From a bacterium (GTDB lineage: Bacteria; Patescibacteriota; Minisyncoccia; UBA6257; Colwellbacteraceae), in contig JAJYME010000004.1 in assembly GCA_021787205.1 (NCBI GenBank), positions 1-39,062 on the forward strand: DNA of 39,062 bases, given 5' to 3'. Each line of letters opens with the position of its first letter. Position 1 is the first letter of the stretch. Position numbers and translations under genes: made by a program. Below the pieces are notes generated by a model that was not told where the DNA came from, made no database searches, and was given only the letters and a program-made list of their open reading frames with translations. Of the stretch, positions 18,189 through 38,264 are shown in pieces.

Positions 18189-18836
18189 ATGGGAAAGATG
18201 ATTTCTACCACTTTTGAAGTGGATACAAAAATTTATCCTATGGAAGCGATTTATTCGGCGGCTTACACTTTCATAGACAGGGCTTATATATATTTGAGCG
18301 GCAATCCAAAAGGGTTGATAAGAGTAAATTTCAAACCGAAGAGCACAGCCTACAACTTCGAAGACGTCAGAGGCGAGTTTATGAATGAGCTTTTGAGTTG
18401 CTCTCTAAGAAATCAGATTTCTGAAAAAAACCACAAGATAAGGGAGTATATCGTCGGCGCCGCCTTATTAGGGGCAAGTGGCGAGATACCCCACCTGGAT
18501 GAGATCGAGAACGAAGGTTCGACTTCCGACAATGATGATGAAGATGATTGCGATTGCGAGTGTGAGTGCGACGATGATTATCATTATGATGAGGAAACTG
18601 ACGCTTTCAAACCCGAAAACAACTCTTGGGAAGATGACCCATTCGGCATAGCAATTCCTTGGGAAGAAAAGTATACGGCTCCGAGCCAAGCCGAGGAGAA
18701 GCCAAAAGAAGAATCTCAGACAAGAATGCAGGAACAGCCTAAAAATACGGAGCCTGAGCTTGTTCCTGGAGAAGATGGAGTCATCGATGTTCCCGAAGAG
18801 GAATTGGCAAAATATGCCAAACCCTGGGACAAATAA
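18189..18836 (+). CDS. hxsD: HxsD-like protein with acidic, Cys-rich C-terminal extension
   Basis: VDTKIYPMEAIYSAAYTFIDRAYIYLSGNPKGLIRVNFKPK...MNELLSCSLRNQISEKNHKIREYIVGAALLGA resembles HxsD, then DNDDEDDCDCECECDDDYHYDEETD tail. Confidence 0.75.
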   Translation: MGKMISTTFEVDTKIYPMEAIYSAAYTFIDRAYIYLSGNPKGLIRVNFKPKSTAYNFEDVRGEFMNELLSCSLRNQISEKNHKIREYIVGAALLGASGEIPHLDEIENEGSTSDNDDEDDCDCECECDDDYHYDEETDAFKPENNSWEDDPFGIAIPWEEKYTAPSQAEEKPKEESQTRMQEQPKNTEPELVPGEDGVIDVPEEELAKYAKPWDK

Positions 18837-18850
18837 TAGGATCCAACCAA

Positions 18851-19057
18851 ATGAAAACAATAGAGTTAAATAAGGACATATACAGATCCGAGGCGATTAT
18901 GTCGGCCATAAGCGGTTTTTCAGAAGCGGGCGAATTCAAGATAAAAGACATCGGAAAATCCTGGATTATAACGATAACTGGAGAAGATGAGGATTTGTTG
19001 CGAGACGAGTTTGCAAATTACTGCTTGGGATTGACCATAGCTAATAAGAAAAATTAA
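18851..19057 (+). CDS. Short HxsD-like protein
   Basis: IELNKDIYRSEAIMSAISGF...LLRDEFANYCLGLTIANKK aligns by eye with the start and middle of the upstream HxsD-like ORF. Confidence 0.6.
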   Translation: MKTIELNKDIYRSEAIMSAISGFSEAGEFKIKDIGKSWIITITGEDEDLLRDEFANYCLGLTIANKKN

Positions 19058-19059
19058 AG

Positions 19060-20529
19060 ATGAAAGACGAAAAAATCGAGAAAATCGAATTAAAGAACGA
19101 CCGATTGAATTTCTTCAGATTCAAAAACATAAAAGACAAGGTTTTGATGACCAATGATTTTGGCAACTATTCTTTTTTGACAAAAGAAGAGTTCAGAAAT
19201 CTTCTTGAAGGAAAGATGGGCGATTCGGAGCCAAAGATGAAGGAATTGAAAGATCGCGGATTCATCAAGACCGATCTTAATGTCGATAAGGCCCTGACCC
19301 TCTATCGAAAAAGAAACGCCTCAATCTTTTATGGTCCCTTCCTCCATATAATGGTCATGACCCTCAGGTGCAATTACAAATGCGTCTATTGCCAAGCTTC
19401 GGCGGTTGATATGAATACCAATAAGTATGACATGACTATCGACGATGCCAAAAAGACAGTCGATTTCATTTTTACGACACCATCTCCGGTCATTACGATT
19501 GAATTCCAGGGAGGGGAGCCGTTAGTCAACTGGCCGGCGGTAAAATTCGTTACCGAATATACCAGGCAAAAGGAAAAAGAAACCGGAAAGAAGGCTTTTC
19601 TAGCCCTCGTCTCCAACCTTTCCTTGATGGATGAGGAAAAATTCAAATTCTTCATGGACAATGGAGTTGGATTGTGCACCTCATTGGACGGACCGGAGGA
19701 ATTGCATAATATGAACAGGCCTTATCCCGGTCAAAACAGTTACAAGGAAACCGTCAAGTGGATCGAAAGGATCAAGGACTGGGAGAAAGAAAAAGCCAAG
19801 GAGGGGATAGACATTTATCTCTTGTCGGCGCTTCTGACAGTCTCGCGAAGATCCCTTAAGTTTTATAAGGAAATCATCGACGAATATTTGAAGCACGGAT
19901 TCAATGGAATCCATCTGAGATCCTTAAGCAACCTTGGATACTCGGCTACCGCCAAAAATACGATCGGCTATTCTACGGAAGAATTTTTGGACTTCTGGAA
20001 GAAGTCGCTGGATTACATAATCGACATCAACAAATCCGGAACTTACTTCATGGAAAGAGGTTCCCAGATCATTCTCAAAAAAATAATCAAGGCGATGGAT
20101 CCCGGATATGTCGATCTCAAGTCTCCTTGCGGAGCGGTAATCGACCAGGTCCTCTATAATTATGACGGCAAGATATTCACTTGCGATGAAGGCAGGATGT
20201 GCGGAGGCGATACTTTCCAGATCGGAAAGATCTCAGGAGAGAATTCGACTAAGAAATATAACGACTTGGCGGAAGGAGACAAGGTAAAGACGATGGTTGT
20301 CGCCTCGACGCTTGATAACACCAGCTGCGACAATTGCGCTTACAAGCCTTATTGCGGAATTTGTCCGATCGTCAATTACATGGAGACGGGAAGCATGACT
20401 CCCCAAATCCAAAATACTTCTTGGTGCAAGAGGCATAAGGCGATGATCGATTATCTTTTTGAAAAGTTGCAAGACCCAGAAATCTACGAGATATTCAAAT
20501 CGTGGACGGAAGATGCAAGAACTGATTAA
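19060..20529 (+). CDS. hxsB: HxsB-like SPASM radical SAM maturase
   Basis: CNYKCVYC; EFQGGEPLVNW; TCDEGRMCGGDTFQIGKI; CDNCAYKPYCGICPIVNY. Adjacent to HxsD-like and HXS-repeat genes. Confidence 0.85.
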   Translation: MKDEKIEKIELKNDRLNFFRFKNIKDKVLMTNDFGNYSFLTKEEFRNLLEGKMGDSEPKMKELKDRGFIKTDLNVDKALTLYRKRNASIFYGPFLHIMVMTLRCNYKCVYCQASAVDMNTNKYDMTIDDAKKTVDFIFTTPSPVITIEFQGGEPLVNWPAVKFVTEYTRQKEKETGKKAFLALVSNLSLMDEEKFKFFMDNGVGLCTSLDGPEELHNMNRPYPGQNSYKETVKWIERIKDWEKEKAKEGIDIYLLSALLTVSRRSLKFYKEIIDEYLKHGFNGIHLRSLSNLGYSATAKNTIGYSTEEFLDFWKKSLDYIIDINKSGTYFMERGSQIILKKIIKAMDPGYVDLKSPCGAVIDQVLYNYDGKIFTCDEGRMCGGDTFQIGKISGENSTKKYNDLAEGDKVKTMVVASTLDNTSCDNCAYKPYCGICPIVNYMETGSMTPQIQNTSWCKRHKAMIDYLFEKLQDPEIYEIFKSWTEDARTD

Positions 20530-20563
20530 AAGATATGCACTTTCGGTTATTCCAACTCTGTAA

Positions 20564-20569
20564 TATAAT
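20564..20569 (+). promoter_or_regulatory. -10 box (TATAAT) for the HXS-repeat gene
   Basis: TATAAT 14 bp upstream of ATG 20584; no strong -35. Confidence 0.5.
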
Positions 20570-20583
20570 TTAAACATTAAGAT

Positions 20584-21165
20584 ATGGACATAAAGGGGAA
20601 GATCCCAAATCTCAAAAAGGAAATAACGGCTTTCATCTCAAGCGAAGAGGGGAGGATCAGCAAGAAAACGGCACTCGAGCTTGGTTTAGGCATAGCCACG
20701 CTTGGTTTTATGCTCTCAAAAAACATAGCGGCCGCCCATTATAGCTATTTTCAGAACGCAGCCGGAGGAGGACAACACTATTCCGGCGATACCGTTCCTC
20801 CCCCACCGTCGACAGCCAACCACTCTTCCAATTTCACAAATGTTTCCGGCGGTGGGCAGCACTCGTCGCACGCGTCTCACGCTTCTCATGGATCCCACGC
20901 CTCCCATGGATCGCATGGCTCCCATGCCTCGCACTCATCCCACGGATCCCATGCGTCACACGGATCTCATACGTCCCATGGATCCCATGGATCCCACGCC
21001 TCCCACGGATCTCATACATCCCATGGCTCCCACTCCTCCCACTCATCCCATGGATCCCATGGATCCCACACGTCTCATGGATCCCACGGATCTCACGGAT
21101 CCCACGGATCCCATGCATCTCATGCCTCGCATTACAATATTACTTGTTGCAAGTGGGTATTTTAG
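20584..21165 (+). CDS. hxsA: His-Xaa-Ser repeat protein (HxsA-like precursor)
   Basis: Hydrophobic N-terminal segment ALELGLGIATLGFML, then 30 contiguous HXS tripeptides, ending YNITCCKWVF. Confidence 0.9.
   Translation: MDIKGKIPNLKKEITAFISSEEGRISKKTALELGLGIATLGFMLSKNIAAAHYSYFQNAAGGGQHYSGDTVPPPPSTANHSSNFTNVSGGGQHSSHASHASHGSHASHGSHGSHASHSSHGSHASHGSHTSHGSHGSHASHGSHTSHGSHSSHSSHGSHGSHTSHGSHGSHGSHGSHASHASHYNITCCKWVF
20860..21129 (+). repeat. 30 x 9-nt coding repeat (HXS)n
   Basis: CAY-NNN-TCN repeated 30 times without interruption; X = G 15, A 8, S 4, T 3. Confidence 0.97.
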
Positions 21166-21167
21166 AG

Positions 21168-21197
21168 AAAAAACTTCGCTTTTGCGAAGTTTTTTTG
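21168..21197 (+). terminator. Strong intrinsic terminator right after hxsA
   Basis: AAAAACTTCGC-TTTT-GCGAAGTTTTTTT. Confidence 0.9.
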
Positions 21198-21217
21198 TTC
21201 AGAATATAATTCCATTA

Positions 21218-22183
21218 ATGAAAAGAGCGCCGATGGTCTCAATAATCTGGGGGTGTAATATGGATTGCTCATATTGCCTAGCCGAGAGCAACAACAATCA
21301 CAAGGCCTTGATGAGCGTATCTGATGCGAAAGCCCTCTTCAATTGGCTTATGAGCCGCGGAGTGGAGACTATCGCCTTGCTTGGAGGGGAGCCGACAATC
21401 CATCCTCACTTCAATGAGATTACCGATATTATCCGCGATTGCGGAATAAAGGCGGGAGTAGCAACAAATGGGTTGTTCAGTTCAGAGAAGAGAGGGGCTT
21501 TTGAGAGAGAGGTTTATAAGAGAGTCTCGGTCCATATTAATGACGAATGGTTTTATAATTCGGACCAGATAGAAAAGCTAAGGGACAACCTTGCTTTCTT
21601 GTCGCAGTCCGGCACTGAGATTGAGACAAGATACGTAGCCCATTCTTCGGGTATCGATACGGATTTCATAAAGGAAATGGCTCGAATATCCGGGTCAAAA
21701 ATAATCAATTTCTCGATTGCCCGGCCGGAAGTCTACGGAGGAACGGCTTATTTGCCAATCAAGTCCGTCCGTCTTTTGTTGTCAAAACTCAAGAGAGTCA
21801 TCGATGGACTGAGGGGAGAGGGGTATATCTCCAACATCATCGCCCTTTATCCAAAATGTATCAAGAGGGGGTATGAGGATCTGTTTGACGGTTATGATGG
21901 CAACTTCTGTTCTTTGGACGACGCTGGACAGTTTGATGTATCATTCATGATCAATCCGGATCTGACTGCCGGTGTCTGTCTCAGTCTTCCTAATATAAGG
22001 ACGGAGAGAAAAGTGGTTGAATTCCTGGACTTGGAAGAAATAAAGGAGAGTTTCAAGGATGAGTTTGAAGCGTTAAGGCGCCAACCAATTTTTGAAGACT
22101 GTCTGAGTTGCCTTGATTTCAATGTCGATTGCCAGGGAGGGTGTCTTGTTTATAAAGATTTTAAAAATGGAACTAGGAAATAG
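21218..22183 (+). CDS. Radical SAM protein with SPASM-like C-terminus
   Basis: WGCNMDCSYCLAE; LLGGEPTIHP; C-terminal CLSCLDFNVDCQGGC. True start 21218, not the 20840 of the ORF track. Confidence 0.85.
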   Translation: MKRAPMVSIIWGCNMDCSYCLAESNNNHKALMSVSDAKALFNWLMSRGVETIALLGGEPTIHPHFNEITDIIRDCGIKAGVATNGLFSSEKRGAFEREVYKRVSVHINDEWFYNSDQIEKLRDNLAFLSQSGTEIETRYVAHSSGIDTDFIKEMARISGSKIINFSIARPEVYGGTAYLPIKSVRLLLSKLKRVIDGLRGEGYISNIIALYPKCIKRGYEDLFDGYDGNFCSLDDAGQFDVSFMINPDLTAGVCLSLPNIRTERKVVEFLDLEEIKESFKDEFEALRRQPIFEDCLSCLDFNVDCQGGCLVYKDFKNGTRK

Positions 22184-23336
22184 GGAAAAAAGAATATTGA
22201 CCGATGAGCTGTATGATGCGGAGAATGACTGTCTGAAGGAGGAGGCTTTATCTCCTCATTTTTTGCTGTTCCTAAACCCGATTCCCAAAATCGATCCCAA
22301 TCAAAAGGTTGTAACCCTTCTTCTGACTACCGAATGCAATGCGGGCTGCGCCTATTGTTATGCCGGCAATTATGGAAAGAAGCAGATGAATTTCGAAACG
22401 GCAAAGATGGCGATAGATACCGCCTTCAGCGATTTTCCCGGAAGAGTCAATTTCGTCTTTTTCGGCGCCGGAGAGCCAACGACCGAAATCGAGCTGATTG
22501 GCGAAATTCTTGATCATCTGGAATATAATTACAAAGGAAAATACGTAGCCGATCTGATGACTAACGGGATGTTTAGCGAGACGGCCTACGAGACAATTAT
22601 GAGAATGGATTCTGTCTGCATTTCCCATGACGGTCTGCCAGCAATCCAGGATAAGATTCGCCCCTTAAAGGGCGGCCAAAAGAGCTCTGATCTGGTTTCA
22701 AGAAATATAAGACACTTTCTTAACAGGAAGCCGGTTTCGATAAGGATGACTGTCACCGGACTGTCGATTGGCCGATTGAAGGAGGCGGTGGATTATTTTT
22801 TCGGACTAGGGGTTAAGAACATCAGCATGTCTCCGTTCTTCACGACGGAAAAATCGAAGAAAAATAACGTCTTGCCGGTTGATGAGAAGGAGTTCGTAGA
22901 CAATTTTTTGGACGCGAAAAAATACGGAGAGGAATTGGGCATGAATATTGCCAGCGAGTATTTACCAATCAAGCCGAGACCGAGCTTTTGTGGTTTTGAG
23001 CAGCCGATGTCGGTCATAACGCCGGGAGGCTTCCTGTCAGCCTGTTGGGAGTGGTGCGAAGTTGGAGAGGGGAGCGAATTTGTTTATGGCAAGATCGGCC
23101 AAAAAGCAAACCCTATTCTTGAAAAAATAAAGAGGAGGACTCCTGAAAATCTGGAAGAATGCGACAAGTGCTTCTTAAGATTCACCTGCGCCGGCGGTTG
23201 CGCGGCGAGACATTATGAAAAGACGGGCGACTTGATGAATCTCGATCAGGAAAGGTGCGAACTTATGAGGTATGCGGTCAAGAAATATTTATTATCAATA
23301 GCAAGGAAATATAAAGATGAAGCAGAAAATAAATGA
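22167..23336 (+). CDS. SPASM radical SAM protein
   Basis: TTECNAGCAYCYAGN; FGAGEPTTE; CDKCFLRFTCAGGCAARHY. Overlaps the previous gene by 17 nt. Confidence 0.9.
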   Translation: MELGNREKRILTDELYDAENDCLKEEALSPHFLLFLNPIPKIDPNQKVVTLLLTTECNAGCAYCYAGNYGKKQMNFETAKMAIDTAFSDFPGRVNFVFFGAGEPTTEIELIGEILDHLEYNYKGKYVADLMTNGMFSETAYETIMRMDSVCISHDGLPAIQDKIRPLKGGQKSSDLVSRNIRHFLNRKPVSIRMTVTGLSIGRLKEAVDYFFGLGVKNISMSPFFTTEKSKKNNVLPVDEKEFVDNFLDAKKYGEELGMNIASEYLPIKPRPSFCGFEQPMSVITPGGFLSACWEWCEVGEGSEFVYGKIGQKANPILEKIKRRTPENLEECDKCFLRFTCAGGCAARHYEKTGDLMNLDQERCELMRYAVKKYLLSIARKYKDEAENK

Positions 23337-23850
23337 GGGCGTATTTATCGCTCTTGCCATAATTTCCCTTTGGGGGATTCTCGAAACCAGATGGTTGCGA
23401 AATTCTCCCGACTACCTTCTGTCCTTTGAAATCTCATTGGCTACCCTGATAATTATGGCGGCAGCCCATCTAATTCTTGCTAATAGGCTTAAGAATGGCA
23501 GGGAGACGGTGGTTTCGGATTTTAAGGATGAGATAAGGAGACTCCCGACAACCGCTCTTAAGGCGGCTTCCGAGGAAATGATTTTCCGAGGAATGATAAC
23601 TTACCTAATCGCCTATGCGGCCGGGCCGTCATACGGGATAGTCTTCGGAACTCTCTTGTTTGCCTTAGTCCATAAGGAAAGTGATCATTTTACTATCGTC
23701 TATTCCATAGCCATGGGTTTGGGGTTAGGTTTTTGCGTCGTTTATGCCAGGGATCTGTTTTTCCCAATCTTGGCGCACATCATTTTTAATGTTTTAGGGG
23801 GATCAATAAAGACGATCAACAAAAAAGAAAAAGATGTTATAATCAAATAA
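23317..23850 (+). CDS. CPBP-family intramembrane glutamic protease
   Basis: SEEMIFRGMITYLIAYA, ALVHKESDH, HIIFNVLGG; multi-TM. Confidence 0.88.
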   Translation: MKQKINEGVFIALAIISLWGILETRWLRNSPDYLLSFEISLATLIIMAAAHLILANRLKNGRETVVSDFKDEIRRLPTTALKAASEEMIFRGMITYLIAYAAGPSYGIVFGTLLFALVHKESDHFTIVYSIAMGLGLGFCVVYARDLFFPILAHIIFNVLGGSIKTINKKEKDVIIK

Positions 23851-23851: not shown

Positions 23852-24757
23852 ATGGACAGATTAGATGTAAAAGTTGGGTTCCAATGCAATAACAAGTGCG
23901 TCTTCTGCATTCAAGGAGATAAGAGATTTCACTTTCCGGACAGAAGCTATGAGGAGGTAATCGGGTTTCTGGAGCAGGGCAAAAAGGAAAATAGGGATTC
24001 GGTTGTCTTTACTGGAGGGGAGCCGACATTCAGACCAAAAATGCTTTTGGAGTGGGTGAGGTACGCCAAGAAGCTAGGATACGAGTACATCCAGATCCAA
24101 ACCAACGGCAGAATGCTCTCTTATTATGATTATTGCAAATCGCTAGTCGAGGCTGGAGCCAATGAATTTTCGCCGGCAGTACACGGTTCGAAGGCGGAAA
24201 TCCACGACAGATTGACCGGTGTGCCTGGGAGCTTTGAACAGGTGACTCAGGGAATAAGGAATCTTAGGAAGCTTGGACAATACGTTATGACAAACTCGGT
24301 GGTGACCAAAACCAATTATCAGGACTTGCCAAACTTAGCAAGACTGTTGATTGATTTGGGCGTCGACCAATTCCAATTCGCCTTCATCCACATCAACCCG
24401 ATCATCGCTGCTAGCAATGATAAGATAATGGAAATAGTCCCCAACGTGCGTGACGCAATGCCTTATATCAAGCAGGGATTGGATATCGGCCGGAGGGCTG
24501 GTGTCAGATGCATGACGGAGGCGGTGCCTTATTGTCTGATGACGGGATATGAAGATTTTATTGCCGAAAGGATAATTCCAGAGGCCCACGTCTTTGATGC
24601 CGAGGCAGATATCGCCGACTATTCCAATTACAGAAGAAATGAAGGGAAGTCGAAAGGGCCACTGTGCAAGGAATGCAAGATGAATGAAGTTTGCGAGGGA
24701 CCCTGGAGGGAATACCCGGACATTTTTGGTTGGGATGAGTTCAAGCCGATAAAATAA
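23852..24757 (+). CDS. Radical SAM protein, HxsC-like
   Basis: QCNNKCVFC; TGGEPTFRP; AVHGSKAEIHDRLTGVPGSFEQ; C-terminal CKECKMNEVCEGPW. Confidence 0.85.
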   Translation: MDRLDVKVGFQCNNKCVFCIQGDKRFHFPDRSYEEVIGFLEQGKKENRDSVVFTGGEPTFRPKMLLEWVRYAKKLGYEYIQIQTNGRMLSYYDYCKSLVEAGANEFSPAVHGSKAEIHDRLTGVPGSFEQVTQGIRNLRKLGQYVMTNSVVTKTNYQDLPNLARLLIDLGVDQFQFAFIHINPIIAASNDKIMEIVPNVRDAMPYIKQGLDIGRRAGVRCMTEAVPYCLMTGYEDFIAERIIPEAHVFDAEADIADYSNYRRNEGKSKGPLCKECKMNEVCEGPWREYPDIFGWDEFKPIK

Positions 24758-24859: not shown

Positions 24860-25816
24860 ATGAGCGAGGGTCAAGCAAAAATGGAAAAGATGTGCATCGT
24901 GATGACCGGATTTTCCTGCAACAATAATTGCATAGTCTGTTCGGTAAAGCCTTTTTCAAAGACTAACAAAGACAAGACGACGGCGGAAATCATCGCCATC
25001 ATGAAAAAGAAAAGGGAATCGGGAGCTGTAAATATCGAGTTTACCGGTGGCGAGCCGACGATGAGGAAGGATATCGTTTTTTTGGTCCAATCTGCTAAAA
25101 AGATGGGTTTTAAGGAGATAGCCGTTTCGACCAACGCAAGACTTTTCAGTTACGAACCTTTTCTGAACGCCATGATAGACGCCGGGTTGACGAGGGTGAC
25201 GGCGACGCTCGACGGGGGCAATGAGAGATTGCATGATGCCATCACAAGAACTCCAGGAGCATTCAAACAGACCACATCGGGGATAAGAAATTTGATCAGC
25301 CGAGGAATTACCACCAGCGTCAATACGGTTTTTACCAAGCTTAACGTCAATAATCTCTCCGAGATAGCGGAGAGGCTGATTGAGATGAGGGTGCCGGTTT
25401 GGGGAGTTTTAGACTTGATCCCGGACGGTAATATAAAGGAGGCATACAAGTCTTCGTGTGTTTCTTTCGCCGAAACTCGGGAGGCCTTAAGGACAATCTA
25501 TTCATATATAGACAGATTAAGCATGATCGAACTTTTTGATTTTCCAGTATGCGCCATACCGCCCGAAATGTATGCTGACAAGGCGAGAGTGATCCATTTT
25601 GACGCTTACGGGAGAATGAATGTGCTCGATCAAGTCGGATATGGTCCGCAGCGATTTGAGGAAAAAGACGGGTTTTTTGAGGATGAACATAAAATAAGAG
25701 TCGAAGCCTGCCAGAAATGCAGCCGGGTAAAGGAGTGCGGGGGAATTTGGAGCCGCCATTACGAAAGGTTTGGCGAAGAGGATATAAGATTCACGGAAAA
25801 TAATTATTTGAAATAA
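24860..25816 (+). CDS. Radical SAM protein, HxsC-like
   Basis: CNNNCIVC; TGGEPTMRK; FDFPVCAIPPEMY; CQKCSRVKECGGIW. Confidence 0.85.
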   Translation: MSEGQAKMEKMCIVMTGFSCNNNCIVCSVKPFSKTNKDKTTAEIIAIMKKKRESGAVNIEFTGGEPTMRKDIVFLVQSAKKMGFKEIAVSTNARLFSYEPFLNAMIDAGLTRVTATLDGGNERLHDAITRTPGAFKQTTSGIRNLISRGITTSVNTVFTKLNVNNLSEIAERLIEMRVPVWGVLDLIPDGNIKEAYKSSCVSFAETREALRTIYSYIDRLSMIELFDFPVCAIPPEMYADKARVIHFDAYGRMNVLDQVGYGPQRFEEKDGFFEDEHKIRVEACQKCSRVKECGGIWSRHYERFGEEDIRFTENNYLK

Positions 25817-25817: not shown

Positions 25818-26675
25818 ATGGAGAGGTTTTTAAGCCCGTATGTTTACGTGGGGTATCATTGTAATAATAACTGCATTTTTTGCAGCGAATCTGACCAGGA
25901 ATACTTGGCAAGAATCGGCGGGCCCATCCCGGCGGAGCAAGTCAAGTCAGATTTGAAGAAAATAAAAGAGGTTTATAACTCAGTGAGCTTCATGGGAAGG
26001 GAGCCGACAATAAGAAAGGATTTGCCTGAATTGGTTGAATATGCAAAAAACCTGGGATTCGAAAGCATTAACATTGCCTCCAACGGAAGGATTTTTGCTT
26101 ATGAGGATTATGTGAAGAAGCTGATCAAATCCGGGGTTACCCAATTCGGGATGTCTTTTTACAGCTCGATCCCAGAGCATTACGATGAGCAGGCCGGTGT
26201 CAAAGGCGGTTACGACCAAGCAGTCCAAGGAATAAGGAATGTCATAAAGAATAAGCCCAGCCACGTGAGCTTCTTAGTCAATATTCCCTTAAACAACAAG
26301 AACGTAGGCGATCTGGAAGAGACTATAAAATTTCTGCTCTCATTCGGAGTCAAAGAAATAAACATCCTTTTCATAGAACCTCTTTCGAAAAAATCGAATA
26401 CAAAAGAGATAGTCGGCAGGATGAGCGAGCTTGGCAATAAGGCGGCGGCGATTGCCGTGAAATACGGGGGTGAGGCAAAGTTCTGGTTGAACGAATTCTT
26501 GCCCTGTGCCTTGAAGCCAGAATTCAGAGATCTGTTTTTCAACTGTCTCGAGAAAAATGTGAATAAGGTGAGAATCCCACTTTGTGAAAAGTGCAAGTAT
26601 AACGATAGGTGCGACGGTGTGCTCTCAACCTACATCGAGCTTTATGGAGAAGAAGAATTCAATTTAGACGATTAA
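25818..26675 (+). CDS. Radical SAM protein, HxsC-like, with GRE in place of GGE
   Basis: CNNNCIFC; MGREPTIRK; CEKCKYNDRCDGV. Confidence 0.85.
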   Translation: MERFLSPYVYVGYHCNNNCIFCSESDQEYLARIGGPIPAEQVKSDLKKIKEVYNSVSFMGREPTIRKDLPELVEYAKNLGFESINIASNGRIFAYEDYVKKLIKSGVTQFGMSFYSSIPEHYDEQAGVKGGYDQAVQGIRNVIKNKPSHVSFLVNIPLNNKNVGDLEETIKFLLSFGVKEINILFIEPLSKKSNTKEIVGRMSELGNKAAAIAVKYGGEAKFWLNEFLPCALKPEFRDLFFNCLEKNVNKVRIPLCEKCKYNDRCDGVLSTYIELYGEEEFNLDD

Positions 26676-29001: not shown

Positions 29002-30651
29002 ATGTTATTAAATAACGCATTTTTTATGGCGCTGACTTTTATTCTCGTCCTGATGGGACTATTCTCCGCAGGCTTTTTATTTCCCAAAAAATTGGAATGG
29101 AAAAGATGGCTTATTATAGCCGGAATAATCGTTCTGGTTTTTGCGGCATCCGGTCTCATGAAAAGTGGAGAATTTGTCCCTTCTGACGAGGAATGGGAAG
29201 AGGTTTATCTGGGTAAAACGATCGGAGAAAACAATGATTCTATCTCAAAACAGGCAAGAAGGGGAGCTCTTTACCCCATGCTGATACATTGGACAAATGG
29301 AATCTATGAAGCGGAAAAATCTCCCGTGATCTTAAACAATATCTTCGTGATCCTAAGCGTCTTATTTGTCTTTGGCGCCATTTACAAGCTTGTCGGAAAT
29401 AAGCTCTTCGCTTTCTTAGGATCGTCCCTTCTATTACTAAATCCTATCTGGGAAAAATGGAGTATCATATTAGAAGGATATCCCGCCATGATGGGTTGCT
29501 TATTAGCCGGATGGTCCCTTTTTATGATTGCCTTCATAAGAGAAAAGAAAATTGAGTATTTTTCAGGAATTATCTCATTTTCCGTCCTTTTATCCATGGG
29601 AAAGATCGAATATGCCATATTCCTTGTTCCTGCCATAGTCGTAGCAATCGTTTCTTTTAATAAGAGAAAGATAGGGCAATCAGCGGCAATGATAGCGCTA
29701 TCGGCAATCTCACTTGTCCCAAGCGTTGTTTTTTCTTTAGGACAAAGACGGGGGTCGGTAGGATTTTGCGGATTGGAATCGAGAGTGGGGCTGGTATCAG
29801 ATAAGATAAACAGATTGATAGGACTTCCCGGAATCGATTTTTTGGAAACCATAGTCAAGGCCATAGGGGGATGGAGATTTTCTTTGGCCTACCTTATTGA
29901 TGATATCCCGACCGTCATCGGATTTTGGATGGAAAAAGATCTTATTATGGTGACTGTTTTAGCTCTTATCGGGGTAACGTTTTCATTATTGAAAAAGGAT
30001 AAAGCGGTATGGATAACATTTCTGTCTTTTATCCTGATCATTTCAGTTTATGCTACTGATTGCGCCACGTACGTCCCCAGATATGCTTCCCCCCAAGTAA
30101 TCATCATGACCATACTCGCGACATACGCTTTATATTGCCTTTATGAATCATGGCGCTTGATATGGCCCCAAAAAGGAACAAGAAATAGGCGGATGGGATA
30201 CGGGCTGGCAAGTTTAATTTCCTTAGCGGTCGTCATATCATTTATTCCCGGGATAAAGAAAAATATCAATTATCTTCATCGGGATAGCCCTTATGCGACT
30301 CCAAGCGCTTTGGAGAACGTCCTTAATCGTCTTCCTGACGCAAAAGCGTTTGTTATCGTTCATAGGACCGAAGCAATGGAAATGATGGTCTTCGACAACA
30401 AAAACAGACCAGTAATCATATTAAACGATCTTTTCGACAGACAAAACAAGATAAAAGAGAGCGACGATATATGCGCTTCGGCGAAATCCCTGTGCAAGGA
30501 AGGAACTTATTTTATAAAGACTGAAAGCTGTACTTGGTTTGAAGTGTCAAGAATAGCCTGCAATAAGATGAGCGAAAACGGAAAAATCGTCAAGAGTGAC
30601 GGGGGAATGAGATCCCTGGAAATTTATCAAATGGGAAAAGAAACGAAATGA
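29002..30651 (+). CDS. Polytopic membrane protein, GT39/ArnT-like glycosyltransferase candidate
   Basis: About 10 hydrophobic segments; acidic PSDEEWEE after the second TM; next to B12-radical SAM and GT2 genes. Confidence 0.6.
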   Translation: MLLNNAFFMALTFILVLMGLFSAGFLFPKKLEWKRWLIIAGIIVLVFAASGLMKSGEFVPSDEEWEEVYLGKTIGENNDSISKQARRGALYPMLIHWTNGIYEAEKSPVILNNIFVILSVLFVFGAIYKLVGNKLFAFLGSSLLLLNPIWEKWSIILEGYPAMMGCLLAGWSLFMIAFIREKKIEYFSGIISFSVLLSMGKIEYAIFLVPAIVVAIVSFNKRKIGQSAAMIALSAISLVPSVVFSLGQRRGSVGFCGLESRVGLVSDKINRLIGLPGIDFLETIVKAIGGWRFSLAYLIDDIPTVIGFWMEKDLIMVTVLALIGVTFSLLKKDKAVWITFLSFILIISVYATDCATYVPRYASPQVIIMTILATYALYCLYESWRLIWPQKGTRNRRMGYGLASLISLAVVISFIPGIKKNINYLHRDSPYATPSALENVLNRLPDAKAFVIVHRTEAMEMMVFDNKNRPVIILNDLFDRQNKIKESDDICASAKSLCKEGTYFIKTESCTWFEVSRIACNKMSENGKIVKSDGGMRSLEIYQMGKETK

Positions 30652-32027
30652 AAAAAGTTTACGTAATAAATACCCCCAGTGAGGAAAGAATGACAATCGA
30701 GGGGAGATGCGCACAGAAAGAATCTACCTGGTCCTCTGTCATGCCGCCGTACAGTCTGGCGTCGGTCTCGGCGATTTTCAGAAGAGGGGGGTTTGATGTA
30801 AAATCGATCGACTGCAGGGTTGAAGATATCGATAAGGAAACACTATTGGAACTTCTCTCAGCGGAGGGGGTGGACATCGTTGTAATAAACTCCTCAATTC
30901 CGACATTTGAATTTGACGTGGAGTTCGTCCGTGACCTCAGGGAGAAATGTAAAAATTTGTTGATTATCGTGTTTGGAATAATGCCGCCCCAAGGGGAGAG
31001 GGCGTTCCTTGAGGCTGGCGGAAGCTCGGTTATAAAAGGTGAACCGGAGTTTGGAGCCGAGGAGATTGCGAAGACCATTATTAACGGCGGCGAGGTTGAG
31101 AAAACTTATAGCGGTATGACAAAGGACCTCGACGGGCTGCCTCATCCCGCATGGGATCTATTTGATCTTTCAAAATACACCATTCTAGGGGAGGGGTTCA
31201 AAAGAGCAAGATATCTATTCGTCGTTCCGGCGAGAGGGTGTCCATTCAACTGTTCTTTTTGCAATGCCTTCGTTTATTATGGAAAGGAAGTAAGATATAG
31301 AACCGTCAAAAGCGTCGTTGATGAAATTGAGGACGATATCAATGAATTCGGCATAGTTAACTTTGCAATGTGGACGGAGACGTTCACGTTCAATAGAAAA
31401 TACGTATCAGACTTATGCGACGAAATAATCAAAAGGAAATTAAAAATAGACTGGATAAGCAATAGCCGAGTCGATAGGGTTGATAAAGAATTGCTCGAGA
31501 AGATGAAGGAAGCGGGATGCTGGATGGTGAGTTTCGGAGTCGAATCGGGCAGCCAGGAGATATTAAACAAGGCGCATAAGGGCACTGCGATAGAGGATTC
31601 GATTACCGCCATAAGGACAGCCAACGAGGTCGGACTGATAACCGTCGCCCATACGATTATCGGTCTTGTGGGAGAAACTGAAAAAACTTCCTGGGAGACC
31701 TTAAAGATATTAAACGACGCGAAGGTTGATTTTGCGCAATTCTATTGCGCGGTGCCGATGCCGGAGACGGAGTTATATAAGGAGGCGGTGAAAAACAACT
31801 GGATAAAGGCGGGCGCCAAGTGGAGCGAATTCGAGCAGACCGTCTCAATCATGGATCTGCCCGGATTCGATCACGAGAGGGTGATGAAAGTAAGAAAAAG
31901 AATATATCTGAGATACTACCTTAACCCCTGCAGGCTTCTAAGGATAATAAGAAAATCAGGGATGGGATCCTTGATTCCAATAGCAAGGGAGGGAATTAAT
32001 TTTGTAGGATCAATTTTAAAAAGATGA
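30648..32027 (+). CDS. B12-binding-domain radical SAM protein
   Basis: N-terminal Rossmann-like region (MPPYSLASVSAIFRRGGFDV) and PARGCPFNCSFCNAF. Overlaps previous stop by 4 nt. Confidence 0.9.
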   Translation: MKKVYVINTPSEERMTIEGRCAQKESTWSSVMPPYSLASVSAIFRRGGFDVKSIDCRVEDIDKETLLELLSAEGVDIVVINSSIPTFEFDVEFVRDLREKCKNLLIIVFGIMPPQGERAFLEAGGSSVIKGEPEFGAEEIAKTIINGGEVEKTYSGMTKDLDGLPHPAWDLFDLSKYTILGEGFKRARYLFVVPARGCPFNCSFCNAFVYYGKEVRYRTVKSVVDEIEDDINEFGIVNFAMWTETFTFNRKYVSDLCDEIIKRKLKIDWISNSRVDRVDKELLEKMKEAGCWMVSFGVESGSQEILNKAHKGTAIEDSITAIRTANEVGLITVAHTIIGLVGETEKTSWETLKILNDAKVDFAQFYCAVPMPETELYKEAVKNNWIKAGAKWSEFEQTVSIMDLPGFDHERVMKVRKRIYLRYYLNPCRLLRIIRKSGMGSLIPIAREGINFVGSILKR

Positions 32028-32713
32028 AAAAAATAACAGTAATAGTCCCGGTATTTAACGAAATTGAATATATTGAGGAATGTTTAAATCGTGTTTATAA
32101 GACGGAATACGACAAACAGGTGATAGTGGTTGATAACAGGTCCACTGACGGGACAAGGGAAAAACTTTTGGAGCTGAGAGATAAAATGGGTTTTCTCTTA
32201 TTGTTCCAAGACGAGATGCAAGGAAAGGGGGTTGCTGTAAAAACGGCCCAAAGCCATATTTCCGGCGACGCCGTCATAATCCAAGACGGAGACTTGGAAT
32301 ATGATCCAAATGATTATAAAAAAGTCCTTGAGCCTATTTTAAGAGGACAAGAAAGGATTGTTTACGGTTCGAGAAATTTGGATAAGAATACAAAAAGAGG
32401 CAACTTTGTGTTTTATTGGGGAGGAAGAATGATCTCCTTGATCGCGAGCATCCTATATGGAACAAGATTGACGGATATCAATACTTGTTACAAGGGATTT
32501 GACGCGGAGTTATTTAAAAGTATCCAGCTGACTGATTCAAAATTTGATTTTTGCGAAGAAATAACCGCCAAATGTCTGATGAGGGGAGAAAAGATAAAAG
32601 AGGTTCCGATCAGCTATTATCCAAGGAAGGTGATAGAGGGAAAAAAATTGAAGTTCAGGGACGGATTCCGATCGATAAGAACTCTCGTTAAGTATCGCTT
32701 TTCAAAGAATTAG
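32024..32713 (+). CDS. Family 2 glycosyltransferase (DPM1-like)
   Basis: ITVIVPVFNEIEYIEECL; VVDNRSTDGT; IIQDGDLEYDPNDY. Confidence 0.93.
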   Translation: MKKITVIVPVFNEIEYIEECLNRVYKTEYDKQVIVVDNRSTDGTREKLLELRDKMGFLLLFQDEMQGKGVAVKTAQSHISGDAVIIQDGDLEYDPNDYKKVLEPILRGQERIVYGSRNLDKNTKRGNFVFYWGGRMISLIASILYGTRLTDINTCYKGFDAELFKSIQLTDSKFDFCEEITAKCLMRGEKIKEVPISYYPRKVIEGKKLKFRDGFRSIRTLVKYRFSKN

Positions 32714-32802: not shown

Positions 32803-33366
32803 ATGGAAAAAGATATTAAGTCAAAAAAGACAATAGTATTAATAGCTGTTTTCGCGATCTCTTTGGTTTTATTGGGAGCGGCTTTGTTCTATTCGCTCAA
32901 GACTCCTGGTAATAATGGAGCTCAAAACCAACCGGCGTCGGGAACCCAATCCCAGGAGCAAGCTGCCGCGACTGAACCTACTGCAACTGCTCCTGACGGT
33001 ACGCCTTTAGTCAATAAAGACGATGTCGTTACTTATAAGGGTCAAACTTTGACAGCTGATAGCAAATATCCCCGAGGTATTTTAGACGGGGTCATTAAAA
33101 AAGTTGACGGCAATGTTGTTACTTTTGAGGTTGAGCTAAAGAGAGTTTTTCCGCAATCTCCTCTAGCCACCAAGACCGTCCAGGTAACCCTGGTTAAGAC
33201 GGCGGAAGTTAATATTATTAGCGCGGATGGAAACAAGACAACCGGGACGATATCAGGATTAAAAGCCGAGGATAGGGCTGGAATGGCCTTGGTTGATGAC
33301 CAGTCCAACAGGACTATCTTTGATAAAGACGCGTTTGACGCAACCAGAATCACCGTTTTTAAATAA
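32803..33366 (+). CDS. Membrane-anchored protein, unknown function
   Basis: N-terminal TM, low-complexity QNQPASGTQSQEQAAATEPTATA linker, beta-rich C-terminal domain. Confidence 0.75.
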   Translation: MEKDIKSKKTIVLIAVFAISLVLLGAALFYSLKTPGNNGAQNQPASGTQSQEQAAATEPTATAPDGTPLVNKDDVVTYKGQTLTADSKYPRGILDGVIKKVDGNVVTFEVELKRVFPQSPLATKTVQVTLVKTAEVNIISADGNKTTGTISGLKAEDRAGMALVDDQSNRTIFDKDAFDATRITVFK

Positions 33367-33379: not shown

Positions 33380-33405
33380 AGAGGCGCTTTGCGCTTCTTT
33401 TTTGT
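33380..33405 (+). terminator. Intrinsic terminator
   Basis: GAGGCGC-TTT-GCGCTTCTTTTTT. Confidence 0.7.
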
Positions 33406-33427
33406 TTCGGTATATAATTTGCTCAAG

Positions 33428-34798
33428 ATGAGTCTTCCTGAGGCGGATAAAATAATCTCTGAAAACGAATCATTCTTGAGGAAAGTCTCCGGCAAGAAAC
33501 CCATTTCTGATATCTCCCTATTCTTACACCGGGAAAAGGAGGTGAGGGGAGAGGAGATAAGGAACCTCTGGACGGATTTCGCGAGAAGAAAGAGGCCTGA
33601 GGATACAATCGGGTTTTATACCCACTTTCCTTTTTGCGCCAAAAAATGCAGTTATTGCATCTACGCTTCAAATGAAAATGACGGATCCGAGTCCGATTCG
33701 TATCTTAAGAGAGTTTTTTCGCATTACGAATATTTTAGCGATGTTTTTCAGAACATCAGTTTTACGAACCTGTATTTTGGGGGAGGGACTCCGAACATGA
33801 TGTCCGATGCCCAAATAGACCTTTTGCTCAGAAGATTGTACAGACATTATAAGTTTGATGATGATGGCGAGAAGACATTTGAGGGCAACCCGGCTTTTTC
33901 AACCCCCTCAAAACTGAGGATTCTTAAAGATCATGGCATCAACAGGTTAAGCTTTGGAGTCCAGTCATTTGACGAGGACGTCTTGAGAAGTAACGACAGA
34001 TTCTTCGGAGGGGTCGCGAAGGCGATAGCCGACGCTGTTGAGGTGGGATTTGAAGACATTAATGCCGATCTCATCATCGGACTTCATGGCGACACCGCCG
34101 GGAATGTCATTGATGGATTCAAAAGGCTTTTGGAGCTGGGTGCGACCGCGGTCCATATTTATCCGCTTCAAATGAAGCCGGAGTATGTGGCTAGATATTT
34201 TGGTGGAAACAAAGCGCTAGCGGAAGGACATAAAATGTCGCTGATAGAAGAGGCAATGCCGAAAATAATCGAATTGGCTGACGATAACGGTTTCTGGCAC
34301 AGAAGGTTCCTGGAAGGATTCTACACCCCAGACAACGAGGTCTCGTTCAATTTCGAGAGAGGCGGGAAAAGAGACTATGAAAAGAAAGCTTATTTTTCTT
34401 CCCGTCCCGGCGGACTCAACTCGATCTTCGGCGTCGGCGACTGGAGCAATTCGAATATTTTAGGAAGAAAGGTGAATTATATGATTGAGAAAATATCCGA
34501 GAATCCAGCGGACGACGTATTCAGGGCGACCTTCTTCAGCGAGAGGGAGTGGCTGGCCGATTATATCGAGGGCATATTTTTTGCAAACAGGATCATAAGC
34601 CGATTCGATTTTAGGGAAAAATTCGGTTCCGATATTTACGATTATTTTCCTGAGGAAATGGCTCTATTGGAGCGGGATGGTATGATAAAAGCCGAAGGGG
34701 ATAAAATATTTTTTACATCTCCTGACGGAACGGAGAGGGTAAAATATCTGCTTTCATTTTTTGACAGGAATAAAATAAAAGAATTTGATGGAGAATAA
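33428..34798 (+). CDS. HemN/HemW-like radical SAM protein
   Basis: THFPFCAKKCSYCIYAS; LYFGGGTPNMM; GINRLSFGVQSFDEDVL; ADLIIGLHGDT. Confidence 0.9.
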   Translation: MSLPEADKIISENESFLRKVSGKKPISDISLFLHREKEVRGEEIRNLWTDFARRKRPEDTIGFYTHFPFCAKKCSYCIYASNENDGSESDSYLKRVFSHYEYFSDVFQNISFTNLYFGGGTPNMMSDAQIDLLLRRLYRHYKFDDDGEKTFEGNPAFSTPSKLRILKDHGINRLSFGVQSFDEDVLRSNDRFFGGVAKAIADAVEVGFEDINADLIIGLHGDTAGNVIDGFKRLLELGATAVHIYPLQMKPEYVARYFGGNKALAEGHKMSLIEEAMPKIIELADDNGFWHRRFLEGFYTPDNEVSFNFERGGKRDYEKKAYFSSRPGGLNSIFGVGDWSNSNILGRKVNYMIEKISENPADDVFRATFFSEREWLADYIEGIFFANRIISRFDFREKFGSDIYDYFPEEMALLERDGMIKAEGDKIFFTSPDGTERVKYLLSFFDRNKIKEFDGE

Positions 34799-35726
34799 AA
34801 TAATAAAGAAAACAGTATTGTTTGTCGGCTATCAATGCAATAACCGCTGCCGTTTTTGCATGGAATACGACAAAAGACAGATTCCGCCGAGAAGCTTTGA
34901 GGAAATGAAATATGAAATAGCGGCGGCGAGGGACAGGGGAACGGATTATTTGGAAATTATCGGCGGCGAGGCGATGATAAGGCCGGATATTATTGACGTC
35001 ATAGCCTTTGCTAAAACCAGGGGATTTGAAACGATCATGATGGCAACCAACGGCCGCGCCTTCGCTTACGAAAAGTTGGCGGAGAAAGTGATTGACGCGG
35101 GTCTTAACAGCTTAGTCTTTTCAATCCACGGACCTAATGCGGAAATTCATGATTATCTGACCCAAGTAAAGGGGAGTTTCGATCAATTGACCAAAGGAAT
35201 AGAGAATGTGAAACGAATAGTCGAGAAGAAGGCTATCCCGTTTTCTCTTGGCAGCAACACCTGCATCGTGAAGCCAAACTACAAGTACGCGCCAGAGATC
35301 GGAAGGTTGATAAGGAGCTACGGCATAAATAATTCCGAATTCATCTTCGCCGACCCCAATGAGGGAGGGGTGAAGAATGATTTCGAAACCTTAATGCCGA
35401 GGATATCCGAGGCGGCGCCCTATATCAGGGAGTTGCTTGATATTGGACGAGCGGACAATTGCCTCCATTGGCATATCCGTTACGTTCCTCTTTGCTATTT
35501 CCCTGACCATCTCAATCAGATAAGCGAGCTTATGGAGGTCCAAACCTTCAAAACGGAACACATTGCGCAGGATTTCAAGAACTTCGATGCTTCCGAGGGG
35601 AGGAAAAACAACGGAAGGACAAAAGCCGAAGGCTGCAAGGATTGCAAGCTGAATAACATTTGTGAGGGTATTTGGAAAGGATATGTGGCTAAATACGGGG
35701 ATGATGAGTTAATTCCAATAAGATAA
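34788..35726 (+). CDS. Radical SAM protein, HxsC-like
   Basis: QCNNRCRFC; IGGEAMIRP; VPLCYFPD; CKDCKLNNICEGIW. ATG at 34788 overlaps previous gene. Confidence 0.85.
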   Translation: MENKIIKKTVLFVGYQCNNRCRFCMEYDKRQIPPRSFEEMKYEIAAARDRGTDYLEIIGGEAMIRPDIIDVIAFAKTRGFETIMMATNGRAFAYEKLAEKVIDAGLNSLVFSIHGPNAEIHDYLTQVKGSFDQLTKGIENVKRIVEKKAIPFSLGSNTCIVKPNYKYAPEIGRLIRSYGINNSEFIFADPNEGGVKNDFETLMPRISEAAPYIRELLDIGRADNCLHWHIRYVPLCYFPDHLNQISELMEVQTFKTEHIAQDFKNFDASEGRKNNGRTKAEGCKDCKLNNICEGIWKGYVAKYGDDELIPIR

Positions 35727-35749
35727 AAATATGATATAATTTACTAATT

Positions 35750-35941
35750 ATGAAGGAATACGTAGTCATTTACAGGAGCGAGGAGCACTTCGAGGTCTTG
35801 GGCTGGGTGGCAGCTGAGAATCTCGAGGATGCCAAGAAAGTCGCCCTGACGAAACTTAAAAAAGAATCGGAATATTACGAAGTGGACGAGGCCGAAATAG
35901 TTGAATACGCCAATCCCCAAATTATAAAATTCAAGGAATAA
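35750..35941 (+). CDS. Small 63-aa protein, unknown
   Basis: MKEYVVIYRSEEHFEVLGWVAAENLEDAKKVALTKLKKES...; TATAAT 35735-35740; sits between two radical SAM genes. Confidence 0.75.
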   Translation: MKEYVVIYRSEEHFEVLGWVAAENLEDAKKVALTKLKKESEYYEVDEAEIVEYANPQIIKFKE

Positions 35942-35945
35942 GGAT

Positions 35946-36884
35946 ATGGATATCTGCGTTTGGAACAGATGCAATAACAGGTGCGTGATGTGCACTAATC
36001 CTGAGGGGTTTGGAGACGCGACCAATTCGGAACCGTACTCTTATGAGAACGTGATTTCGAGATTGGACAATGTAAAACAAATAAGGCCGGACTGGGAGAA
36101 CGAGCCCTTTTGCTTAACGGGAGGGGAGCCGACATCTCATCCCCGTTTTTTGGATATAGTCAAAGAATTAAGAAGGAAGTATCCGAAGAACGAGGTGATG
36201 ATAGCCAGCAACGGGAGGATGTTCGCTTACCCTCAGTTCACAAAAGATTTCTTAGCCTACGATCCTTTCAGGATAGAGGTGGCAGTCCACGGATCAGATG
36301 CCCGGAAGCATGATATGATCACCCGAGTCCCAGGAAGCTTTGATCAAACAATGATGGGGCTTCGAAACATCTTGAAATACAAGCAACCCTGGCAGGAGTT
36401 GGAGATCAGAGTAATCCTTTTGAAATTAAACCTGTCTGACGTCGGCAATATCATCGAATTTATCTCGAAGGAATTTCCCGAGGTGGCGAGAGTAGTCTTG
36501 ATTTTCCCGGAGTTCGAAGGGATGGCCGGGGTCAACAAGCATATTGTCGGGGTGAATTATCGCGACATCAAAGAAAATGTAGAGAATCTGGTTAACAGAT
36601 GGAACAGCGACAAGCTTGAAGTGAGACTCTATCACTTTCCCTTGTGCGCCCTGCCTCCAGAACTTTGGAAATACACCTGGAGAACCCTGAGGGAAGGCGA
36701 GGTAACCTTTCTTGAGAGGTGTGAGACCTGTGTCTACAAGAAATACTGCATGGGAGTCCATGTCGAATATCTTGCGGAGGTTGGCGATGAGGAGTTCTTG
36801 CCAATAGAAAAAAAGACGGTTGATATCGAAGAGGAGCTTGATGAAAAACACTTCAAATACCACCCGATAAAAGACATTAAATAA
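35946..36884 (+). CDS. hxsC: Radical SAM protein, best HxsC candidate
   Basis: RCNNRCVMCTNPEG; LTGGEPTSHP; AVHGSDARKHDMITRVPGSFDQT; YHFPLCALPPELWKYTWRTLREGEVTFLERCETCVYKKYCMG. Confidence 0.7.
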   Translation: MDICVWNRCNNRCVMCTNPEGFGDATNSEPYSYENVISRLDNVKQIRPDWENEPFCLTGGEPTSHPRFLDIVKELRRKYPKNEVMIASNGRMFAYPQFTKDFLAYDPFRIEVAVHGSDARKHDMITRVPGSFDQTMMGLRNILKYKQPWQELEIRVILLKLNLSDVGNIIEFISKEFPEVARVVLIFPEFEGMAGVNKHIVGVNYRDIKENVENLVNRWNSDKLEVRLYHFPLCALPPELWKYTWRTLREGEVTFLERCETCVYKKYCMGVHVEYLAEVGDEEFLPIEKKTVDIEEELDEKHFKYHPIKDIK

Positions 36885-38045
36885 ATGAACATCGTTTATT
36901 GGTTATCTGGGGCGGCGCTTTTCATAATCGCCGCCTTCAGTTGCTATACGGATATAAAATACGGAAAAATATCGAATAAGGTTATTTTCTTCGGGGCCGT
37001 TTTCGCGGTCGCGCTCTACGCCTTCCTCTTGTTGCACAACTTCCTTTTTGTCGGCAAAGATTCAAACGTCGATTACGTCCTTAAGATGGCAACCAACGGG
37101 TCGCTCTCTTTAGCCGTCGGTTTCTTCCTTTGGAAGTTCAATTTCTGGTCTGCTGGCGACGCAAAGCTGTTTGCCATCTATTCGGCGATAATGCCACTCG
37201 AGGCTTATTCCAATGGAGCCGTCCAAAACTATCTATCCTTCAATCTTCTGATCAATCTCTTCTTTCCGATCCTGATTGTCTTGCTCTTGAAAGCCGTTCT
37301 TTTTGCCGGGAAAAAAGTTTGGCAAGGACTCAAGGAGAAAACGCTAGCTGATGATATGAAGAAAAGAATGACTATCAAAGGCTTGGGAAAATCAGCCTTA
37401 GCGATTGTCAAAAACTTCACCGATTTCGTGTTTATGTACATATCTTTTTCGTGGATATTTTCATTTCTGGGAATATTCACTGGCGGAAGGTTGAGTTTGG
37501 ACCCGTTCCTAATGTTTTTCCTGATGCTTTATCTCTCGAGCCAATTGAGCAAGCTAAAGGAGAAATTCAAATTCGTAAACGCGATAATATACGCTATCGT
37601 TCCGCTGGATATCGTCTACCTTTTGATAATGCGAAACTTCAGGACGATAAAGAGCATTCTTTTCTTCTCGGCGATATTTATGATCTTGATAGGCCTTACG
37701 AGGCATATCCTCAGGTTGTATGTCGAAGTTGGAGAGACTCAAAGGGTGAAGGTCAGGGATTTGAAAGAGGGGATGGTCATCTACTATGATGAAATCAGCG
37801 CAATTAGGAATTTGGCGGAAGAAAGAGGCCAAAAGGATAAATTCGACTTCCTGGGGCAGGGCGGCGTCAAGGATGACCAGATAAGGATAATTACACAATT
37901 ATTTGAAGGCAGGGAGGAGACGATATTCAGGGTATATAATTCGTTCCCGTTCGCTCCCTTCCTTTCCTTGTCCGCCATTCTGACCTTCGTCACCAAAGCG
38001 TCCTTCCTTAATCTTTTGGCGGCACTGATGAAGCTAAACAAATAA
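36885..38045 (+). CDS. A24 prepilin-peptidase-like membrane protein
   Basis: SCYTDIKYGKISN and FWSAGDAKLFAIYSAIMP (the two Asp motifs of type IV prepilin peptidases); polytopic. Confidence 0.75.
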   Translation: MNIVYWLSGAALFIIAAFSCYTDIKYGKISNKVIFFGAVFAVALYAFLLLHNFLFVGKDSNVDYVLKMATNGSLSLAVGFFLWKFNFWSAGDAKLFAIYSAIMPLEAYSNGAVQNYLSFNLLINLFFPILIVLLLKAVLFAGKKVWQGLKEKTLADDMKKRMTIKGLGKSALAIVKNFTDFVFMYISFSWIFSFLGIFTGGRLSLDPFLMFFLMLYLSSQLSKLKEKFKFVNAIIYAIVPLDIVYLLIMRNFRTIKSILFFSAIFMILIGLTRHILRLYVEVGETQRVKVRDLKEGMVIYYDEISAIRNLAEERGQKDKFDFLGQGGVKDDQIRIITQLFEGREETIFRVYNSFPFAPFLSLSAILTFVTKASFLNLLAALMKLNK

Positions 38046-38051
38046 AGAACA

Positions 38052-38264
38052 ATGAAGATAATATACGATAAAAACAAATGCATGGGTTGTGGTTTATGCT
38101 CCAACCTTGATCCGGAGAACTTCGGCTACGAAGAGGGGAAGGCGACCTTGGTAAACGGCACCGAAAAGTCTGCCGGAATCTTTGAAAAGGCGATAGAGGA
38201 AGCGAAAGAAGAAACCAAGACGGCGGCGGAGGCTTGCCCGGTAATGGCAATAGAAATCAAATAA
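38052..38264 (+). CDS. Single-cluster [4Fe-4S] ferredoxin
   Basis: DKNKCMGCGLCSNLDPENF...AACPVMAIEI pattern (CxxCxxC...CP). Confidence 0.92.
   Translation: MKIIYDKNKCMGCGLCSNLDPENFGYEEGKATLVNGTEKSAGIFEKAIEEAKEETKTAAEACPVMAIEIK

Follow-up and report, generated by a model that had tools for sequence, protein, structure and literature searches.

Radical SAM locus and the question it raises

Why should a small bacterial genome keep eleven genes for radical SAM (S-adenosylmethionine) enzymes beside a single gene for a repeat peptide? The question is raised by a locus in a Patescibacteria genome of 616 kb (assembled in 11 contigs, with 96% completeness and 0.03% contamination), at positions 18189–38264 of the window, the whole stretch of DNA analysed here (39,062 nucleotides of contig JAJYME010000004.1). 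An earlier note, made from the letters of the window, had read the locus as a multi-enzyme variant of the His-Xaa-Ser (Hxs) peptide-maturation system in which one repeat peptide, or several cryptic peptides, receives many modifications. We consider it likely that the locus is one operon of the RiPP (ribosomally synthesized and post-translationally modified peptide) type, an expanded Hxs system around the precursor HxsA4, with many enzymes acting on one repeat precursor. The multi-enzyme part of the earlier proposal was supported by the eleven radical SAM genes beside one precursor and by a core of genes kept across phyla. The part concerning several cryptic peptides was not, as a leader search of the host genome returned one precursor only.

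Organization of the locus

The locus consists of 21 genes, all on the plus strand, which overlap or are separated by gaps of at most 102 bp, and it is flanked by housekeeping genes on the opposite strand (tsaD and valS, by eye). At its head lie the genes described in the note as two HxsD-like open reading frames (ORFs), an HxsB-like SPASM enzyme and an HxS-repeat precursor. Upon hidden Markov model (HMM) search, all four exceeded the NCBIfam cut-offs: HxsD (18189–18836; TIGR03976, 72.4 bits, cut-off 50), an HxsD-like protein (18851–19057; NF038315, 62.8 bits, cut-off 41), the radical SAM/SPASM enzyme HxsB (19060–20529; TIGR03978, 492.8 bits, cut-off 370) and the HxsA4 precursor (20584–21165; NF038313, 79.1 bits, cut-off 55), giving strong support for HxsB and HxsD, the lack of which would have refuted the note on its own terms. 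Eleven ORFs, namely HxsB and ten others on the same strand (R2–R11), contain the CX3CX2C motif and exceed the Pfam Radical_SAM cut-off. The start of the ORF at 20840–22183 was corrected to ~21218, its upstream part being an out-of-frame reading of hxsA, and improved start positions were obtained for two others (22167 and 33428). The whole genome has 16 radical SAM genes, 11 of which lie within the 20.1-kb locus (binomial P ~2e-13); about two thirds of the radical SAM complement of a 616-kb genome thus stands beside one precursor. Characterized RiPP pathways usually contain one to three radical SAM enzymes.

The nearest solved relative of HxsB by sequence is chain 5wgg_A, and the alignment of the CcpM model to HxsB begins at residue 21. 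The AlphaFold model of HxsD has a beta-alpha-beta-beta-alpha arrangement with a predicted local distance difference test (pLDDT) score of 81, and its resemblance to Pcc1/Rpb11-type modules is weak (E 0.06 at best). An HxsD-like gene adjoins HxsD in most related Patescibacteria loci.

HxsC-type enzymes

The relationships of the other enzymes were analysed in a tree of 121 HxsC-like radical SAM proteins, including two canonical HxsC (a quick IQ-TREE run under LG+G4, with branch support from the Shimodaira–Hasegawa-like approximate likelihood ratio test, SH-aLRT, only). R11 (35946–36884) clustered with canonical HxsC (SH-aLRT 99) and, judged from its sequence, is probably the HxsC ortholog of the system. 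It scored below the HxsC cut-off (TIGR03977, 183.8 versus 267.9 bits), and therefore the system is classed as a variant rather than a canonical Hxs member. Five further enzymes, R4 (23852–24757), R5 (24860–25816), R6 (25818–26675), R7 (26677–28941) and R10 (34785–35726), are HxsC paralogs. The ten additional radical SAM ORFs of the note are thus present, with one now placed as the probable HxsC and five as its paralogs.

The R10 clade (SH-aLRT 100) has 12 members from Patescibacteria, Elusimicrobiota and one Woesearchaeota-labelled bin, and R5 and R6 form ortholog clades with other Patescibacteria loci (SH-aLRT 99 and 100 respectively). R4 belongs to a neighbouring set beside these three clades, and its relatives in Patescibacteria, Elusimicrobiota and Myxococcota are 46–67% identical. 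The best matches to the HxsC4 model (NF038332) were R4, R10, R5 and R6. An assignment of R4 as HxsC4 itself was rejected, as its 168.3 bits, the best score in the window, and the scores of its relatives in several phyla (184.5 at most) compare with a cut-off of 500. Towards the end of their radical SAM part, R4–R7, R10 and R11 have a Cys followed by a CxxCx5C motif, and because of this pattern each enzyme probably carries one auxiliary cluster. In R7 the radical SAM part is joined to a DUF483-like domain (best E 9e-9; DUF483 matches in 9/9 aligned members) with invariant GYxxCC and CxxxC motifs, and the R7 counterpart in a sister genus is two separate genes, one radical SAM and one DUF483-like. 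Identification of the DUF483-like part by fold was tried and abandoned, its model matching no known fold. The host genome has two more HxsC-like radical SAM genes (C7:77441–78118, L042, and C11:3679–4500, L043, both on the minus strand), with no HxsA-like neighbour.

A core shared across phyla

A scan for R4 in 84,980 species genomes gave 28 loci, chiefly from Patescibacteria, Elusimicrobiota and Myxococcota; archaeal-labelled bins contributed two short contigs, which may be mis-binned. In the family and order of the window, HxsB exceeded its cut-off in 3 of 61 genomes, namely that of the window and two from a single sister genus, and a third member of that genus has an HxsB copy interrupted by a contig end. 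The loci of these three sister-genus genomes are syntenic with that of the window. Patescibacteria and Elusimicrobiota loci have in common HxsD, HxsB, HxsA4, HxsC (R11), R4, R10 and an A24-type protease, with R10, R11 and A24 side by side in varying order. A conserved 63-residue protein, s63 (35750–35941), holds the same position between R10 and R11 in four other loci (43–51% identity). The A24-type aspartyl protease-like membrane protein (36885–38045) has both catalytic Asp motifs (D before K/R-I/V-x-N, and GDAK or GDSK) in 14/14 loci compared, which upholds the A24 reading of the note, although its Pfam score was marginal (PF01478, 26.0 bits, cut-off 26.5). Every Patescibacteria or Elusimicrobiota locus examined that has an HxsA leader and repeat on an adequate contig has extra radical SAM genes adjoining; the repeat gene without such neighbours, which the note had named as an observation that would speak against it, was not seen among them.

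Radical SAM genes with the motif, counted in well-covered clusters, ranged from 5 to 16 per cluster. The numbers for Patescibacteria were 14 (genome G405), 13 (G437 and G438), 12 (G440), 11 (the window and G442), 9 (G020), 8 (G439) and 5 (G436), and those for Elusimicrobiota were 16 (G539) and 9 (G543); G486 has 20 over a 59-kb stretch, possibly representing more than one cluster. In each of the Elusimicrobiota clusters (L158/L159 in G539, L154–L156 in G486 and L157 in G543) there are several genes of the HxsB type, and as many as 16 radical SAM genes fall within 30 kb.

The minimal locus, in G436, has just five radical SAM genes: HxsB, R4, one more HxsC-type protein, R10 and R11. Around the core, the variable genes differ by lineage: G438 has a carbamoyltransferase and TsaD-like, Sua5-like, ATP-grasp and AlaRS-like proteins, G437 has a carbamoyltransferase together with a glycosyltransferase and an aminotransferase, and G405 has a peptidyl-arginine deiminase-like protein. 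These differences suggest lineage-specific decoration, or a separate pathway sharing the operon. If the latter, only the shared core (HxsB, R4, R10, R11 and perhaps DUF483 and s63) would act on HxsA4, and R2, R3, R5–R9, the glycosyltransferase and the membrane protein would serve another pathway, for example in glycan or lipid metabolism. Both the five-gene locus and the lineage-dependent variable set favour such a division. However, R5, R6, R7 and R12 are HxsC relatives with orthologs encountered in this analysis solely inside such loci, and core and variable genes are interleaved with tight spacing and overlaps. We therefore regard the division as unlikely.

The HxsA4 precursor

HxsA4 is a protein of 193 residues in which a basic leader is followed by a hydrophobic segment ending AAA, His-Xaa-Ser repeats and the C-terminal sequence CCKWVF, with 33 HxS triplets in the whole protein. 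Its leader motif reads K..I..FISSEEGRISKK. Precursors from both Patescibacteria and Elusimicrobiota carry the motif K..I..FL.SEEG.I.K, and those of Myxococcota carry a looser version of it. The 29 repeat units are encoded by 16 different 9-mers, and therefore the triplet is kept at the protein level and not by recent DNA duplication alone. From its sequence features HxsA4 is probably exported. An attenuator-like hairpin with a U run lies directly 3′ of hxsA (21167–21196, plus strand; RNA folding, -15.8 kcal/mol, z -4.1).

Precursors across the loci compared contain 7–54 HxS triplets. Those of Myxococcota include compact forms with HGS-only repeats. In three genomes the HxS repeat is joined to a C-terminal domain of ~300 residues starting CPFxxxWNGK (L146 from 1503 on the minus strand, in G331; L073; L092:7124–8578), for which Pfam gave no match in the one tested. 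The G331 repeat is largely HSQ and Cys-rich, and was missed by the HxsA4 model.

A different role for the precursor would be that of a scaffold from which a small cofactor or metabolite is made, with residues cross-linked and then excised as for PQQ (pyrroloquinoline quinone) or mycofactocin. PQQ is made by this route (PMC8326336), and the many different tailoring enzymes together with two membrane proteases would suit it. The number of repeats, the hydrophobic export-like segment and the 300-residue domain of three genomes nevertheless fit a displayed protein better, and the canonical HxsA compared likewise ends in what looks, by eye, like a peptidoglycan-binding domain; we consider the scaffold role improbable.

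Co-occurrence of R4, HxsB and HxsA4

In a sample of 14 genomes picked by R4 alone, an HxsB match below 1e-40 was found in 12 (over the cut-off in 11) and an HxsA4 match in 10 (over the cut-off in 8). HxsB base rates were 3/380 in a Patescibacteria sample and 12/100 in Elusimicrobiota, and at the 12% rate taken from these samples the excess of HxsB in the R4-picked genomes has P ~2e-8. In all three HxsB genomes of the 380-genome sample, HxsB is adjoined by an HxsA that has the same leader. In Myxococcota, R4, HxsB/HxsD and HxsA4 lie mostly on separate contigs yet co-occur (L086–L090, L121–L129), and therefore the link between R4, HxsB and HxsA4 is not mere neighbourhood. The Myxococcota arrangement is unusually dispersed for a peptide-modification system. 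His-rich repeats can bind metals, and the HxS repeat might be a surface protein that does so without being modified, its radical SAM neighbours being unrelated; this is very improbable given the co-occurrence across phyla, even unlinked, and the cross-phylum core block.

Remaining genes of the locus and its surroundings

The CPBP protease, glycosyltransferase and ferredoxin genes named in the note were all confirmed by Pfam: a CPBP (Rce1-like) intramembrane protease (23317–23850; PF02517, 49.1 bits, cut-off 22.4), a GT2 glycosyltransferase (32024–32713; PF00535, 93.9 bits, passing the cut-off) and a [4Fe-4S] ferredoxin (38052–38264; Fer4_15, PF13459, 53.7 bits, cut-off 22.4). R2 (21218–22183; PF04055, 47.7 bits) has no clear subfamily and a long branch in the tree, and no counterpart was found in the sister-genus loci. 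R3 (22167–23336) is a radical SAM/SPASM protein, with the SPASM domain model over its cut-off and the PapB model at 128 bits (cut-off 340). Several genes were either absent from the note's list or listed there without the traits given here: the DUF483-like fusion (26677) and s63 (35750) described above; a polytopic membrane protein (29002–30651), glycosyltransferase-like by eye only and without a Pfam or NCBIfam match; R8 (30648–32027), a B12-binding radical SAM protein (PF02310 and PF04055 over cut-off) that is BchE-like below the cut-off; TM1 (32806–33366), a one-helix membrane protein with an extracytoplasmic domain and no family match, resembled by small membrane proteins in several related loci (by eye); and R9 (33428–34798), HemN/HemW-like (TIGR00539, 136.5 bits, below the cut-off), with an ortholog in one sister-genus genome.

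In one sister-genus genome (L045:1750–4162, minus strand) the locus continues into genes for a 2-oxoacid:ferredoxin oxidoreductase, a possible electron source. This enzyme was rejected as a part of the locus, being 45 kb away in the window genome and unmatched in two others. In four Patescibacteria loci (L100:4332–5372, minus strand; L104:4193–5287 and 1518–4217, minus strand; L108/L109; L113) the A24 gene is directly followed by genes for secreted Ig/PKD-type proteins with a similar tail, LP-x-W/Y-x-E-x-x-P(F), which may be a sorting signal. A short way downstream of the locus are genes that look, by eye, pilin-like and PilM-like (L041:922–4638, plus strand). Elsewhere in the window, a twelfth radical SAM gene stands on the opposite strand (2432–3259, minus), and an ORF at 7231–8214 (minus strand) apparently joins dihydrofolate reductase-like and HIT-like parts (by eye), with a thymidylate synthase-like gene as its neighbour (8199–9263).

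Proposed pathway and its standing

In an expanded Hxs system around HxsA4, the leader (K..I..FL.SEEG.I.K) would dock the precursor on HxsB, the HxsD pair or both, and HxsB and the HxsC-type enzymes would modify the His-x-Ser triplets in the cytoplasm, dividing the work. The hairpin behind hxsA may raise the precursor over the enzyme transcripts, and the ferredoxin may supply electrons. R2, R3, R5–R9 and the glycosyltransferase would add lineage-specific changes, such as methylation or glycosylation, after which the leader would be removed and the A24 protease, the CPBP protease or both would release the modified repeat at the membrane for display or secretion. The likeliest core chemistry would join His C2 to Ser Cβ in a three-residue cyclophane, a proposal made because of the triceptide precedent (PMC11002830) and one that we hold as possible but doubtful. 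In that family, HaaB links His C2 to Ala Cβ, YhhB links His C2 to Arg Cβ and MscB links Phe C4 to Ser Cβ, each as a three-residue cyclophane, so that His and Ser are both known as partners in i to i+2 links, in separate members (PMC11002830).

Several observations weigh against this picture. HxsB exceeded the cut-off of no cyclophane maturase model, and its N-terminus gave no PqqD match. HxsD was considered as a PqqD-like RiPP recognition element and set aside, as its modelled fold does not look like the winged helix of such elements. R4–R7 and R10 are below the cut-offs of both HxsC and HxsC4. The number of repeats and the number of enzymes are uncorrelated (Spearman rho -0.32, p 0.37, n=10). 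Myxococcota HxsA4 proteins mostly have no hydrophobic segment, and therefore export need not be general.

Taken more broadly, HxsA4 loci may be widespread multi-enzyme radical SAM maturation lines (up to ~16 radical SAM genes per cluster). HxsC paralogs of ancient origin would share out the modification of a single exported His-x-Ser repeat protein, and reduced-genome Patescibacteria would maintain such a line, the product being a polymer-like, multiply cross-linked surface peptide of undescribed chemistry; we offer this tentatively, at slightly less than an even chance. Recurrence in several phyla points to conserved and chemically unexplored heavy peptide modification. The cross-phylum core (HxsB, HxsC, R4, R10, HxsD, HxsA4 and A24) is a small testable set for finding Hxs products, and simple starting points are offered by the five-enzyme minimal locus and by the compact Myxococcota precursors, whose repeats are HGS only.

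Comparison with known systems

Hxs systems were reportedly predicted in 2011. HxsA4, HxsC4 and the HxsD-like protein are already NCBIfam models, and the kind is therefore known to curators. We found no publications on the expanded loci, HxsA4 or HxsC4 in a search that left most subscription journals outside, and earlier notice is possible. The window precursor is a member of HxsA4 by its score, and no protein compared reaches the 500 bits of HxsC4.

Canonical Hxs (hxsD-hxsB-hxsC-hxsA; TIGR03976/03978/03977; e.g. Aeromonas salmonicida plasmid NC_009349) shares with the window locus HxsD, HxsB, a protein of HxS-triplet repeats and, in R11, a probable HxsC ortholog. Its radical SAM genes number two and its HxS stretch is short, whereas the window locus has eleven such genes and long repeats, together with an extra HxsD-like gene, the A24 and CPBP proteases, DUF483 and a distinct conserved leader. 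Triceptides (three-residue cyclophane RiPPs; XncB, OscB, MscB, HaaB and YhhB) resemble the system in their radical SAM/SPASM enzyme and aromatic-x-acceptor triplet; the window proteins, however, have no HMM membership in that family, and the present system has a long repeat and many enzymes. The poly-cyclopropylglycine peptide of TvgA/TvgB is similar in that radical SAM chemistry alters many units of a repeat precursor, but it involves one radical SAM enzyme and a Thr-Val-Gly-Gly repeat, and is not an Hxs system (PMC9062424).

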